Source of the DNA: Flagellimonas zhangzhouensis
GTDB taxonomy: Bacteria; Bacteroidota; Bacteroidia; Flavobacteriales; Flavobacteriaceae
Assembly: GCF_900102925.1 (NCBI RefSeq)
Contig: NZ_FNKI01000002.1
Span: 992,001-1,056,000 of the forward strand
Length of the DNA stretch: 64,000 bases
Reading direction: 5' to 3'
Of the stretch, positions 52,292 to 55,795 are shown piece after piece (position 1 is the stretch's first letter; every line of letters begins with the position of its first letter). The position numbers and the translations under genes were made by a program. Below the pieces are notes generated by a model, which had not been told where the DNA came from, made no database searches, and saw only the letters and a program-made list of their open reading frames with translations.

Positions 52292-53488
52292 ATGTTTAAA
52301 AAAATAGGACCAGGTGTATTGGTCGCAGCAGCCTTTGTTGGACCAGGCACCTTAACCATGTGCACACTTGCAGGTGTACGATTTGGTTATAGTTTAATTT
52401 GGGCCTTATTGGTCTCAATTATCGCTACTATTGTATTGCAGGGAATGGCTGGTAGAATTGGTTTAGTCACCCAAAGTGGATTGGTCGATGTGGTAAAGCA
52501 GCAAGTACAATCAAAAGGATTGCGAAACCTTGTAATCGCCATTGTATTTGGTGCCATTTTGGTTGGGAATGCAGCCTACGAAGCTGGAAACATAGGTGGA
52601 GCCACCCTAGGATTGGAGCAATTGATTTCACACCAACCCTTAAAACCGTTTCTTCCATTATTTATAGGACTTATTATTTTCTTTTTATTGTGGTTTAGTA
52701 CCTATAAAATTTTAGAAAAGATTTTTGTGGCCTTGGTCGGAATCATGGGAGTGAGTTTTGTGATCTGCGCTATTATAACACAACCATCAATCACAGGAAT
52801 TATTAAAGGAATGTTCGTGCCGCAATTGCCTGAAGGAAGTTTACTAACCGTAATTGCTTTGGTAGGAACTACCGTTGTACCCTATAATTTGTTTTTGCAC
52901 GCTTCTTTGGTGAAGGAAAAATGGACATCCAAAGCAGATTTAAAAACTTTGAACTGGGACACCATTTTGTCTATTGGTTTAGGGGGATTGGTCTCTATGG
53001 CTATTTTAATCACCGCTTCAGCAGCACCTTTGTCCGATATTGGTAATGCCTTGGATATGGCGGTGGCACTCGAACCCTTATTTGGAAAAATGGCCGTGTA
53101 TTTTATGGCAACAGGACTGTTGGCAGCTGGAATCACCTCTGCAATCACCGCTCCATTAGCTGCTGCTTTTGTAGCTAGCAGTAGTTTTGGATGGGAAGGA
53201 GGCATGCAAAATATAAAGTTTAAGCTCGTTTGGTTGTTGGTGGTGCTGTGTGGAGTAGTTTTCCTTTCTTTTGATATTAAACCCATTCAGGTTATACAGT
53301 TTGCACAAATTGCCAATGGGATTTTGCTGCCTATTATGGCATCTTTATTACTATGGGTGGTGAACAAAAAATCGGTGATGGGAGAAAACAAGAATACGCT
53401 GCTCCAAAATATTTTGGGATTTGCCATTGTTGGATTTGCCATTTTTTTGGGAGCAAAAAGTATCTTAAAAGTAATAGGATTGTTCTAA
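52292..53488 (+). CDS. Nramp-family transporter lacking metal ligands, linked to pxpABC
   Basis: 398 residues, about 11 helices of the LeuT/Nramp fold. Helix 1 reads AAFVGPGTLTM where metal-transporting Nramp proteins have DPGN: the aspartate is Gly17 and the asparagine is Thr20. Helix 6 reads VVPYNLFLHASLV where Nramp has MPHNLYLHS: the metal-binding methionine is Val196 and the histidine is Tyr198. So the site for Mn/Fe is gone. The stop (53488) is directly followed by the pxpA start (53489). The likely substrate is 5-oxoproline or an amino acid, an inference from context. Confidence 0.85.
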   Translation: MFKKIGPGVLVAAAFVGPGTLTMCTLAGVRFGYSLIWALLVSIIATIVLQGMAGRIGLVTQSGLVDVVKQQVQSKGLRNLVIAIVFGAILVGNAAYEAGNIGGATLGLEQLISHQPLKPFLPLFIGLIIFFLLWFSTYKILEKIFVALVGIMGVSFVICAIITQPSITGIIKGMFVPQLPEGSLLTVIALVGTTVVPYNLFLHASLVKEKWTSKADLKTLNWDTILSIGLGGLVSMAILITASAAPLSDIGNALDMAVALEPLFGKMAVYFMATGLLAAGITSAITAPLAAAFVASSSFGWEGGMQNIKFKLVWLLVVLCGVVFLSFDIKPIQVIQFAQIANGILLPIMASLLLWVVNKKSVMGENKNTLLQNILGFAIVGFAIFLGAKSILKVIGLF

Positions 53489-54232
53489 ATGAATCAATTT
53501 TCCATAGATATTAATTGTGATGTTGGCGAGGGAGTAGGCAATGAAGCTGAACTATTTCCTTTTATCAGCTCCTGCAATATTGCTTGTGGCGGACACGCAG
53601 GGTCAAGAGAAACCATGATGGAAGTGGCTCAGTTGGCAGCAATTCATGGTGTTAAAGTTGGAGCACACCCCTCATACCCTGACAAAGCCAATTTTGGAAG
53701 GGAAGCGATGGATATTTCCAAAGAGGAATTGATTCAAAGTGTCCAATCACAGCTGTCAACTTTCGATGAAGTCCTTGAGGAACTGAAAATACCATTACAT
53801 CACATTAAAGCGCATGGGGCTTTGTACAATCAAATCTCAAAAGACGAACTACTTGCGAGGGTGTTTTTAAAAGCGATTGAAAGTTATCGTGATAATGCAT
53901 TACTCTATGTTCCTTTCAATTCGGTGGTTGAGAAGTTGGCGCTGGAAATGGGTTTCAAAATAGCCTACGAAGCATTTGCGGATAGAAATTACAATGTTGA
54001 CTTAAGTTTGGTGTCCAGAAAACAAGAAAATGCCCTTATTCAAGATCCAAAAGAAGTGTTGCATCATATTTTACCTATTATAAAAGAAGGTAGCGTAAAG
54101 GCCGTCAACGGTGAGTTTGTTGAAATTTCTGCACAAACCCTTTGTGTGCATGGGGATACAGCCGCTGCATTAAAAATATTAACGTATATTTCAGAAGAAT
54201 TACCCCGAAACCTTGTGCACATAGAAAAGTGA
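53489..54232 (+). CDS. pxpA: 5-oxoprolinase subunit A (LamB/YcsF family)
   Basis: 247 residues. Opens 5-oxoproline to glutamate with ATP, together with PxpB and PxpC. Conserved IDINCDVGEGVGNEAELFPF (about 5-24), SCNIACGGHAGSRETM and VKVGAHPSYPD, plus HIKAHGALYNQ. The stop overlaps the pxpB GTG (GTGA at 54229-54232). Follows the transporter gene without spacing. Confidence 0.94.
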   Translation: MNQFSIDINCDVGEGVGNEAELFPFISSCNIACGGHAGSRETMMEVAQLAAIHGVKVGAHPSYPDKANFGREAMDISKEELIQSVQSQLSTFDEVLEELKIPLHHIKAHGALYNQISKDELLARVFLKAIESYRDNALLYVPFNSVVEKLALEMGFKIAYEAFADRNYNVDLSLVSRKQENALIQDPKEVLHHILPIIKEGSVKAVNGEFVEISAQTLCVHGDTAAALKILTYISEELPRNLVHIEK

Positions 54233-54963
54233 AAAAGTACCCCATCAACATCAAACCTTTTGGAGAACGAGCCGTTTTAATCGAATGGCCCAATAAGGTA
54301 AGTGAATCCATTTTGGCCAACATTCTCGACTTTATGGATGTGTTTAAAGAACTAAAAATTGAAGGCTGGGAAATGTCCGTAGCCTACAATTCCTTGACCA
54401 TGGTGTACAATCAGGATCATATAGATTTTGAAGAGACCAAATCCATGATTTTGGACTGTTATGGAAAAATAGATAGTTCCGAAATCCAACGAACGCAGCA
54501 TTTATGGACCATTCCCGTGTGTTATGACCTCGAATTCGGGATTGATATTGAAGACGCAGCCAAAACCTTAAAACTTTCTGTTGAAGAATTGATTGAACAA
54601 CATACTTCGCATGAGTATGTGGTGTTTGGTATCGGTTTTTTACCTGGATTTATGTATTTGGGTGGGTTGCCTTCCAGTTTGGAGATTCCGCGTAGAGCAG
54701 AGCCAAGGTTGAAAGTAACCAAAGGTTCGGTTGGTCTGGCAGGAAAACAAACTGGTATTTATCCCCAAGATTCTCCTGGCGGATGGAACATTATTGGAAA
54801 CTGTCCTGTGCAACTTTTCAATCCAAAGGAAAAAACACCCTGTTTTGTGAAAGTAGGTGACAAAATCCGATTTGAGAGCATATCCAAAGCCGAATACGAT
54901 TTGCATAAGATAGAAGGTGAGGTCGGAATTTATAAACCCGAAAAAGTTGTTTTGAATGCTTAA
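54229..54963 (+). CDS. pxpB: 5-oxoprolinase subunit B
   Basis: About 244 residues from the GTG at 54229 (VKKYPINIKPFGERAVLIEW), which overlaps the pxpA stop; an upstream in-frame ATG at 54142 lies inside pxpA and is rejected. Allophanate-hydrolase subunit 1 domain: VCYDLEFGIDIEDAAKTLKL, FGIGFLPGFMYLGGL, GSVGLAGKQTGIYPQDSPGG, WNIIGNCP. Its 3' end overlaps pxpC by eight bases. Confidence 0.94.
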   Translation: MKKYPINIKPFGERAVLIEWPNKVSESILANILDFMDVFKELKIEGWEMSVAYNSLTMVYNQDHIDFEETKSMILDCYGKIDSSEIQRTQHLWTIPVCYDLEFGIDIEDAAKTLKLSVEELIEQHTSHEYVVFGIGFLPGFMYLGGLPSSLEIPRRAEPRLKVTKGSVGLAGKQTGIYPQDSPGGWNIIGNCPVQLFNPKEKTPCFVKVGDKIRFESISKAEYDLHKIEGEVGIYKPEKVVLNA

Positions 54964-55795
54964 AGTTCTAAAATCTGGTTTTTATTTGACCATTCAAGAC
55001 TTGGGAAGGTTTGGATTTCGTGATGTTGGTGTGCCCATTTCAGGAGCTATGGATATTGCATCGGTTAAAAAAGCCAATATGTTGCTCGAAAATGATGATA
55101 ATGACGCAGTGTTGGAAATCACCATGACTGGACCCACACTTCAGTTTGATGTACCAACCTTTATTTGTCTTTCTGGAGCCCATATTTTGGCCACATTGAA
55201 CAATCAACCCATAGAAAACTTTCAGGTGATTAAAATAGAAAAAGGGGATATCCTTTCTTATGGAAGATTGGAAAGTGGATTTAGGGGATATTTGGCCATT
55301 AAAGGCGGTTTTCAAAATGATAAGGTGTTGGGAAGCCGTTCCCAATTTGTTCCTGTCACCAAATCCGCACGACTTAAAGATGGGGATGAGGTAAAATACA
55401 AGGAGTCAAAATCATTTAAACCTATAATAACCGAAGTAAAGATTGAAGATCACTTTGAAAAGGATACGCTGGTAGTTTTTAAAGGGCCAGAATTTGAATT
55501 GCTCACGGATGCACAGCTCACCGAAATTTTCACCAAAACCTATTCTCTTTCCAAAGAGAACAATCGAATGGCCTATCAAATTGCTGAATTAATCAAGGGA
55601 CACGAACATTCCATGTTAACTTCTGGCACTTTGCCTGGTACAGTACAATTAACGCCTGCTGGCCGCATGATCATTTTAATGAAAGATGGCCAAACCACGG
55701 GAGGTTATCCTAGGATTCTACAATTATCTGAAGATTCCATTAATGTTTTGGCGCAGAAAAGGTCAGGAGAGAGTTTTCAATTCAAGCTTTCTTGA
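54956..55795 (+). CDS. pxpC: 5-oxoprolinase subunit C
   Basis: 279 residues, allophanate-hydrolase subunit 2 domain: LKSGFYLTIQDLGRFGFRDV, GVPISGAMDIAS, ANMLLENDDNDAVLEITMTG, RGYLAIKGGF, LGSRSQFVP, and the C-terminal LPGTVQLTPAGRMIILMKDG, QTTGGYPRILQL. Last gene of the transporter-pxpABC operon; 146 bases follow before the DUF302 gene. Confidence 0.94.
   Translation: MLKVLKSGFYLTIQDLGRFGFRDVGVPISGAMDIASVKKANMLLENDDNDAVLEITMTGPTLQFDVPTFICLSGAHILATLNNQPIENFQVIKIEKGDILSYGRLESGFRGYLAIKGGFQNDKVLGSRSQFVPVTKSARLKDGDEVKYKESKSFKPIITEVKIEDHFEKDTLVVFKGPEFELLTDAQLTEIFTKTYSLSKENNRMAYQIAELIKGHEHSMLTSGTLPGTVQLTPAGRMIILMKDGQTTGGYPRILQLSEDSINVLAQKRSGESFQFKLS

Follow-up and report, generated by a model that had tools for sequence, protein, structure and literature searches.

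A probable 5-oxoproline importer on an Nramp scaffold, encoded with 5-oxoprolinase genes in Flagellimonas zhangzhouensis

Introduction

The window analysed here, a stretch of 64,000 nucleotides from Flagellimonas zhangzhouensis (contig NZ_FNKI01000002.1, positions 992,001 to 1,056,000), encodes an Nramp-related protein just upstream of genes for 5-oxoprolinase. This protein is very probably a secondary importer with the LeuT fold, built on the Nramp scaffold, whose substrate would be 5-oxo-L-proline or a small lactam closely resembling it. Import of 5-oxoproline is the most likely function because the residues that hold the metal in its best-known relatives have been lost, and because genes of this type are linked to 5-oxoproline ring-opening enzymes of two unrelated types.

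Part of this picture is, of course, already known. Linkage of the Nramp family to pxpABC, together with a role in 5-oxoproline uptake, has been proposed from mutants for YcsG of B. subtilis and PxpT of C. glutamicum (PMC13274462, PMC10448178); the claim for the YcsG mutant originates with Niehaus et al. (2017), as those two papers cite it. What is new here is the clade to which the window protein belongs (clade 1), its two enzyme partners, and a test of the ligands against the reports of manganese import.

For a single type of operon the literature contains a contradiction, with YcsG (MntG) and MumT presented as manganese importers and YcsG and PxpT as 5-oxoproline importers. The ligand test, a second clade and two unrelated enzyme partners together offer a reason, drawn from sequences, to prefer an organic substrate, and the doubt about a metal role extends to two relatives whose published role is manganese import. 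If this is true, many importers of organic acids carry the database label "divalent metal transporter," and a single fold, that of Nramp, would serve both metals and lactams.

The operon

The transporter gene (52292..53488, forward strand) encodes 398 amino acids and is given a putative PxpT-like role. Its stop codon, TAA, occupies 53486-53488, and the ATG of pxpA falls on the very next base, 53489. That gene (53489..54232, forward strand) encodes 5-oxoprolinase subunit A, of the LamB/YcsF family (PF03746). Subunit B is encoded by pxpB (54229..54963, forward strand; PF02682), whose GTG start at 54229 lies within the pxpA stop, giving an overlap of 4 bases; this start is our choice, the list of open reading frames beginning at TTG 54142. 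Subunit C is encoded by pxpC (54956..55795, forward strand; PF02626), whose first 8 bases are shared with the end of pxpB. The initial annotation had reported both the abutting genes and the overlaps, and both are borne out. In a profile search of the operon proteins, PxpA and PxpB exceeded their NCBIfam cut-offs, and the product of pxpC scored below those of the PxpC models (PxpC_5OPro, TIGR00724).

A copy of the transporter is present in 22 of the 23 genomes surveyed from the same genus. All 22 copies keep GPGT and VPYN and have pxpA and pxpB within the 1.5-kb flank, so the motifs and the operon are not a matter of chance. Near-identical rows from the genus (17 of the 22) were left out of the counts that follow, as were sequences that were shorter than 330 amino acids or excessively gapped (including L178 and the clade-2 rows L224, L231 and L254), the pxpA fragments G484 and G497, and the sub-cut-off match G143.

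An Nramp fold without the helix-1 and helix-6 metal ligands

The transporter matches a single Pfam family, PF01566 (Nramp), with 275.6 bits and E 7.7e-82 (cut-off 29.8). Databases label it as a metal importer. Its AlphaFold2 model (mean pLDDT 93.6) has the ten-helix LeuT core, with breaks at 16-17 in helix 1 and at 195-196 in helix 6, next to both motifs. Nramps are its top structural matches; against 6c3i_B, VIA-align gave Z 48.9 and rmsd 2.4 over 376 aligned residues. The LeuT-like fold proposed in the initial annotation thus agrees with the model, including its two broken helices.

The fold is shared with canonical Nramp/MntH proteins such as DraNramp and BfraNramp, but the metal site is not. 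The first transmembrane helix reads AFVGPGTLTM, with GPGT at 17-20, and the sixth reads GTTVVPYNLFLH, with VPYN at 196-199. Alignment to DraNramp and 11 canonical proteins places G17 at D56, T20 at N59, V196 at M230 and Y198 at H232, which upholds the earlier claim that DPGN has become GPGT and MPHN has become VPYN, with loss of the Asp, Asn, Met and His. The helix-3 Glu134 of canonical Nramps aligns with Asn100. The ligand-type Gln of helix 10 (Q378 in DraNramp) is retained, as Q339.

Thus, the window protein has neither the DPGN nor the MPH that marks a canonical Nramp/MntH (Slc11) protein, whereas all 11 controls carry these ligands. It also falls below the NCBIfam cut-offs for the MntH/nramp subfamilies (138.9 against 430, and 98.3 against 272.5), passing among these models only the broad NF037982 (107.4 against 50). 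Of the proteins with solved structures, the closest in sequence is EleNRMT (E 2e-35), an Nramp-related magnesium transporter that likewise lacks DPGN. However, the helix-1 Asp (D-A-G-G) and helix-6 A-P-W of the NRMT magnesium transporters, represented here by the NRMT-like rows L066 and L068, are replaced in the window protein by GPGT and VPYN, and it lies on a separate branch. A decayed Nramp is rejected; the reading frames are intact and the residues invariant.

Clade 1

Clade 1 comprises 167 sequences, in all of which the four aligned ligand positions are free of Asp, Asn, Met and His; 80 came from a scan that had these motifs in its patterns, and 87 were collected without a motif filter. 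G17, V196, Y198 and N100 are each found in 167 of 167, and position 20 is always T or S. The acid near the site, E97, is Glu in 132 sequences, Gln in 34 and Ala in one. Because it varies in this way, no acid is invariant at the aligned central positions of the clade.

In an IQ-TREE tree, rooted arbitrarily on the canonical rows, the branch of the window protein has support 95, and 18 tips of a clade with GPGF/GGYI motifs (clade 2) form a separate branch with support 100, with the window protein outside it. L183 groups with L180 and L182 outside clade 1; L174 and L184 fall inside.

Two unrelated enzyme partners

Within the DNA examined at each locus, 69 of the 167 clade-1 genes have pxp genes nearby. 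A further 20 lie near a lactamase of the OPLAH/HyuAB type, unrelated to pxp, and on the same strand in 20 of 20; the remaining 78 have neither enzyme nearby. The second group comes from haloarchaeal plasmids, Actinomycetota, Bacteroidota and Gammaproteobacteria. Exchange between the enzyme types requires about 5 Fitch changes on the tree, against a mean of 18.3 when shuffled. Among Bacteroidota homologues of 42-62% identity, pxpA, pxpB and pxpC adjoin the gene on the same strand in 16 of 20 loci. Chance neighbourhood is rejected on the linkage across four phyla and the haloarchaea.

Seen from the enzyme's side, an Nramp-like gene occurs in the region of 50 of the 125 pxpA loci examined, and the other 75 have none nearby. 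Retention of DPGN or MPH in most copies beside pxpABC had been named in the initial annotation as the finding that would count against it; these motifs are kept in 0 of the 37 pxpA-linked Nramp-like copies in which both were read. Conversely, none of the 11 canonical DPGN loci lies near either enzyme.

Co-occurrence points the same way. PxpA is present in all 24 Bacteroidota genomes with a copy of at least 44% identity, against 10 of the 124 without one. Where gammaproteobacterial copies are unlinked, PxpA is encoded elsewhere in 18 of 19 genomes, against 39 of 150 Pseudomonadota.

The HyuAB/OPLAH relatives require more care. None reaches an NCBIfam equivalog cut-off; the best NCBIfam match of the HyuA/HyuB neighbours is caprolactamase, below its cut-off, and their nearest solved chains are N-methylhydantoinase and then a chain deposited as a 5-oxoprolinase. 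Relatives of these enzymes also cleave caprolactam and hydantoins. Given that range and the absence of any equivalog hit, 5-oxoproline is unproven as the substrate of the linked HyuAB/OPLAH enzymes.

A second clade and the manganese reports

On present alignments, pxpABC operons use two distinct ligand-less Nramp-related clades, of which the window protein represents the first. Clade 2 resembles it in its PF01566-type LeuT fold, in being encoded with pxpABC, in lacking DPGN and MPH (the helix-1 and helix-6 ligands are absent in 24 of 24 sequences), and in sharing N100, Y198, S283 (helix 8) and N342 (helix 10). It differs in carrying GPGF/GGYI instead of GPGT/VPYN, in forming a separate, fully supported clade, and in having pxpA-type enzymes as sole partner in the loci seen. 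YcsG and PxpT are placed in clade 2 by gene order and a published identity of 50%, and MumT of A. baumannii, named by operon order, also belongs there. Identity by descent between the window protein and YcsG is rejected on the tree. In a fold search, the YcsG chain 9a52_A (an integrative YcsG-FabL structure) was 21-22% identical to the window model. In Bacillota, a clade-1 gene occupies the operon type that in other species holds a clade-2 gene (L154, L155 and L142 against L223).

The published experiments concern clade 2. Deletion of pxpT in C. glutamicum is reported to abolish growth on 5-oxoproline, with complementation (PMC13274462); this evidence, of course, comes from a clade other than that of the window protein. 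For YcsG (MntG), overexpression is reported to raise cell manganese, MntR to bind the operon promoter, and an mntH mntA ycsG triple mutant to be unobtainable without a ycsG copy (PMC10448178). Deletion of mumT is reported to lower cell manganese and give manganese tolerance, with complementation (PMC5050338). The apparent loss of ligands sits badly with these reports of manganese import. Neither DPGN nor ligand appears as a word in the main text of PMC10448178, and the main text of PMC5050338 contains neither DPGN nor metal-binding.

There is an even chance that a wider proposal holds. Here, the pxp-linked, ligand-less Nramp-related proteins would be carriers of organic lactams, two clades filling the same operon slot, and canonical metal transport would be a single branch of a scaffold for organic solutes, either older than it or parallel to it. 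MntG (YcsG) and MumT would then be misassigned, their manganese phenotypes arising indirectly through 5-oxoproline/glutamate metabolism or regulation.

Proposed function and its alternatives

The predicted fold, the residue changes, the operon, the linkage and the co-occurrence are established directly; from them we infer the substrate, the direction and the roles of residues. The importer would bring 5-oxo-L-proline into the cell, where ATP-dependent ring opening by PxpABC would yield L-glutamate. The substrate may bind between the two broken helices, 1 and 6, at the position that the metal takes in canonical Nramps. Gly and Thr for the Asp and Asn of DPGN, Val and Tyr for the Met and His of MPH, Asn100 for Glu134, and an added Asn342 in helix 10 would make the pocket uncharged and hydrogen-bonding. 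The earlier suggestion of 5-oxoproline or another organic substrate accordingly gains support from gene context, missing ligands and model, with uptake itself a probable reading of these. Observations that run counter to it include the clade-1 loci with neither enzyme nearby, the pxpA loci without an Nramp-like gene, the wider substrate range of HyuAB/OPLAH relatives, the different neighbour of a VTYN subgroup, the retention of Q339, the magnesium transport of EleNRMT despite its lack of DPGN, and the reports that YcsG and MumT raise or sustain cell manganese.

The importer might instead carry a different small lactam or amino acid (glutamine, or a compound resembling hydantoin or proline), with 5-oxoproline a side substrate or an intracellular product. 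The N-methylhydantoinase and caprolactamase affinities of HyuA/HyuB lean this way, as does a fold shared with amino-acid transporters and, at a poor rmsd of 9.6, with Mhp1, which imports hydantoins. This is nonetheless unlikely; PxpABC is known as a 5-oxoprolinase, and conversion of 5-oxoproline to glutamate is the reaction common to the PxpABC and OPLAH/HyuAB families. An exporter of 5-oxoproline, or a 5-oxoproline/glutamate exchanger, is most improbable. 5-Oxoproline is reported to form spontaneously inside cells (PMC13274462), and the structural matches include AdiC and other exchangers with the LeuT fold; but a cell would gain little by exporting a compound that the neighbouring enzyme breaks down, and PxpT is reported to be required by C. 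glutamicum for growth on external 5-oxoproline (PMC13274462).

Import of a divalent metal (manganese or magnesium), serving the operon enzymes or general supply as claimed for YcsG and MumT, is very unlikely, although it has more than the cited phenotypes in its favor. The genome itself, 99.83% complete, has no DPGN-type Nramp at E <= 0.001. By analogy, a protein may lack DPGN and still carry a metal, because EleNRMT, described as moving magnesium without DPGN, and NRAT, described as moving aluminum, are also Nramp-related; EleNRMT implies that DPGN is dispensable for metal transport. Against this stand the loss of helix-1 and helix-6 ligands throughout both clades, a clade 1 without an invariant central acid where both NRMT-like rows have retained the Asp of helix 1, and genomic linkage to two lactam-opening enzymes. 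The cited support is, moreover, of the whole-cell kind as reported.

Relation to other transporters

The orphan outgroup of Slc11 described by Cellier, and the "Nramp-related proteins" of Ray, Berry and Gaudet, are PF01566 proteins without the Slc11 metal site (PMC10606218, PMC9606685, PMC12873925). Compared by description, the helix-6 V and Y of the outgroup, and its helix-3 Y and N spaced four residues apart, correspond to V196, Y198, Y96 and N100 of the window protein. The descriptions consulted in these sources state no organic substrate and no link to 5-oxoprolinase.

As a LeuT-fold carrier for a cyclic amide, Mhp1 offers a working analogy for what the window protein may do, although it belongs to another family and matches the model weakly (E 5.8e-6). 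A VTYN subgroup adjoins 2-oxoacid:ferredoxin oxidoreductase instead of lactam-opening enzymes.

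The transporter gene and its ligand positions

The open reading frame at 52292-53488 on the forward strand (398 amino acids) matches the Nramp family PF01566 with 275.6 bits. It scores well below the NCBIfam cut-offs for MntH and the nramp subfamily, and passes only the broad model NF037982. The initial annotation held that its helix-1 and helix-6 motifs are GPGT and VPYN, and that it belongs to a 5-oxoprolinase operon. Both points stand: the motifs read as described, pxpA opens at the base after the transporter, pxpB overlaps pxpA by 4 bases, and pxpC overlaps pxpB by 8. A Nramp-like gene without the helix-1 and helix-6 metal ligands does indeed lie beside pxpABC.

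At E <= 0.001, PF01566 finds two more places in the same assembly (99.83% complete), and DPGN is absent from both. One (L002, C9:1339873-1340904) lies just above the cut-off and is very divergent, with GTSH at the DPGN position; it adjoins a prolyl-oligopeptidase-like gene. The other (L003), below the cut-off, is read as a sodium:solute symporter.

An AlphaFold2 model of the window protein, made with 52 sequences (mean pLDDT 93.6, pTM 0.92), has helix breaks at residues 16-17 and 195-196. In structural comparison the model comes closest to Nramps (6c3i_B: Z 48.9, rmsd 2.4, 376 aligned, 23% identity), with amino-acid transporters of the APC superfamily ranking at some distance below (AgcS, Z 30.6; AdiC, Z 30.3). 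A common fold alone does not show the substrate.

The ligand positions were compared across the window's clade (here clade 1), aligned as 167 sequences including the window's, with the genus reduced to five relatives. In all 167 rows, 80 of which came from a scan for the peptide patterns V[PG]YNLFLH and AAFIGPGT[VI], so that their motifs are partly selected, and 87 of which were found through whole-protein similarity, the helix-1 Asp is Gly, the helix-1 Asn is Thr or Ser, the helix-6 Met is Val, the helix-6 His is Tyr, and Glu134 of helix 3 is Asn. The helix-10 Gln is retained in all 167. An adjoining acid, E97 of the window protein, is Glu in 132 rows, Gln in 34 and Ala in one. The full set (D, N, M, H, E) is present in all 11 canonical rows; two rows resembling Nramp-related Mg transporters keep the helix-1 Asp.

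Linkage to 5-oxoprolinase

Within the genus, every one of 22 copies is linked to pxp genes. In a search of 296 Bacteroidota genomes, pxpA, pxpB and pxpC lie downstream on the same strand in 16 of 20 fetched loci at 42-62% identity, and in none of 20 fetched at 30-39%; at seven of these more distant loci, an OPLAH-type gene shares the transporter's strand. Across the 167 clade-1 rows, the neighbours are pxp genes on the same strand (62) or the opposite strand (7), or OPLAH/HyuAB genes on the same strand (20); 78 rows have neither enzyme in the available flanks, some of which end at contig ends.

Of 19 gammaproteobacterial genomes whose transporter copy stands apart from pxp genes, 18 encode PxpA elsewhere, versus 39 of 150 Pseudomonadota genomes (Fisher p 5.8e-9, relatedness ignored). 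In Bacteroidota, PxpA scores above cut-off in 24/24 genomes with a copy at at least 44% identity, the window's own among them, versus 10/124 without a copy (p 4.8e-20, relatedness again ignored).

The survey was also run in reverse, starting from PxpA (PF03746) in 148 Bacteroidota, 149 Bacillota and 150 Pseudomonadota genomes. Here, 125 of the 127 places above cut-off were examined. A clade-1 gene lies near 29 (21 Bacteroidota, by coordinates; 6 Bacillota; 2 Pseudomonadota), once on the opposite strand (L160). Among the other 96 loci, all of them fetched, 21 have a Nramp-like reading frame, always on the pxpA strand; at two (L222 and L231), three opposite-strand genes intervene. Thus, 50 of the 125 have a Nramp-like gene nearby and 75 do not, the window's genome and two others (G333, G335) being among the 50 by construction, as search centres. 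The loss of DPGN, for which the initial annotation proposed a survey, holds in every copy read: in the 37 of these 50 with both motifs read (18 clade 1, 19 clade 2), none keeps DPGN or MPH.

Two clades in one kind of operon

The 21 non-clade-1 proteins (clade 2) have another signature: the helix-1 motif is GPGF and the helix-6 motif GGYI. An IQ-TREE phylogeny of 90 rows supports this clade at 100 and the window's at 95; clade 2 groups with other Nramp-related proteins (93), and the canonical rows split from all Nramp-related rows (100).

The clade-2 genes include that of Bacillus badius, where the order is pxpA, NRAMP, putative hydro-lyase; another locus (L223) reads pxpA, NRAMP, hydro-lyase, pxpB, pxpC, the operon order of B. 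subtilis. This order fits passages of PMC10448178 and PMC13274462. Three Bacillota operons (L142, L154, L155) are of the same kind and hold a clade-1 gene.

An A. baumannii record has the order NRAMP, PxpA, hydro-lyase, amidolyase (PxpB/C), biotin carboxylase, and is equated by gene order with the mumTLUHC cluster of PMC5050338. Its clade-2 protein has the motifs SAMGPGFLTQTA and GGTVGGYICYAG. This mum operon (L296, 6905-13103) was published as one for urea and Mn metabolism; it looks like a pxp operon that, besides PxpA and fused PxpB/C, encodes a hydro-lyase and a biotin carboxylase of its own. The clade-2 NRAMP-PxpA cluster is also common on plasmids (167 matching records, 93 from Klebsiella and 7 from Enterobacter); a single Klebsiella example (L299, 4914-11084) was read from end to end.

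Both clades share N100, Y198, S283 and N342 (window numbering), differing from canonical proteins, which have E, H and L at the positions of N100, Y198 and N342. These residues may line the predicted lactam site.

A second enzyme partner

The OPLAH/HyuAB enzymes match Hydantoinase_A and Hydantoinase_B and, judged by these Pfam families, are unrelated to PxpABC. The chemistry common to both is ATP-dependent lactam opening, and 5-oxoproline is the substrate that the two families have in common. On haloarchaeal plasmids, genes annotated as hydantoinase/oxoprolinase A and B come directly after the transporter in three of the four regions fetched, those of Haloferax lucentense, Haloarcula marismortui and Halocatena marina. 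The fourth, from Natrononativus amylolyticus, lacks them there, as does a Pseudoalteromonas plasmid. A fused 1268-aa OPLAH-type enzyme ends about 30 bases ahead of the transporter in one Bacteroidota locus (L051), and OPLAH/HyuAB genes also occur at five loci in Actinomycetota and at one in Gammaproteobacteria.

None of these OPLAH/HyuAB enzymes reaches an NCBIfam equivalog cut-off; their top matches, below it, are caprolactamase subunits. The nearest solved chains are N-methylhydantoinase, then a chain deposited as a 5-oxoprolinase. On a FastTree tree, the 69 pxp-linked and 20 OPLAH-linked tips require 5 changes of enzyme type, versus a shuffled mean of 18.3 (minimum 13), implying that the transporter stayed with the reaction while the enzyme switched several times.

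All four haloarchaeal regions (L069, L071, L072, L073) have a CopG-type ribbon-helix-helix regulator gene just upstream of the transporter, a candidate 5-oxoproline sensor.

Metal or lactam?

The published substrates conflict, and the ligand survey bears on the conflict over YcsG, MumT and PxpT. According to the available parts of PMC10448178, YcsG was first proposed for 5-oxoproline on mutant evidence, and later renamed MntG as a Mn importer on the basis of overexpression, a failed triple mutant and MntR binding. For MumT, the assignment to Mn import was drawn from cellular Mn content, tolerance to Mn and growth with calprotectin (PMC5050338 and PMC11796373, in the portions available). Growth of C. 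glutamicum on 5-oxoproline needs pxpT, and metal transport by PxpT is left possible by the authors (PMC13274462, likewise in part). Groups lacking the metal site have been described as "Nramp-related" or "orphan" in accessible text of PMC12873925, PMC10606218 and PMC9606685. Among the open-licence PMC matches listed, no paper ties Nramp-like proteins to OPLAH/HyuAB, and none compares the ligands of pxp-linked copies.

Gene context and residues support the predicted function that the initial annotation favored, import of 5-oxoproline or another amino acid, with 5-oxoproline the most probable substrate. Pxp-linked Nramp-like carriers were a known kind; the window adds a second clade of them, with an additional, unrelated enzyme partner.

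Divergent relatives

Seven clade-1 rows have VTYN or VAYN in helix 6 (among them Bacteroidota L049, L050, L052, L054 and L056). Four have korA/korB genes for a 2-oxoacid:ferredoxin oxidoreductase beside the transporter, and a fifth, at a contig end, korB alone; perhaps this subgroup has another substrate. A further Nramp-related type, GPGS/PPNT, occurs in gammaproteobacteria (L180, L182, L183), and one such genome (G1306) has a DPGN/MPHN MntH about 20 kb off. In one Bacillota genome, a GTGT/VPYN relative adjoins a DUF6282 gene (L161, 5062-7203).
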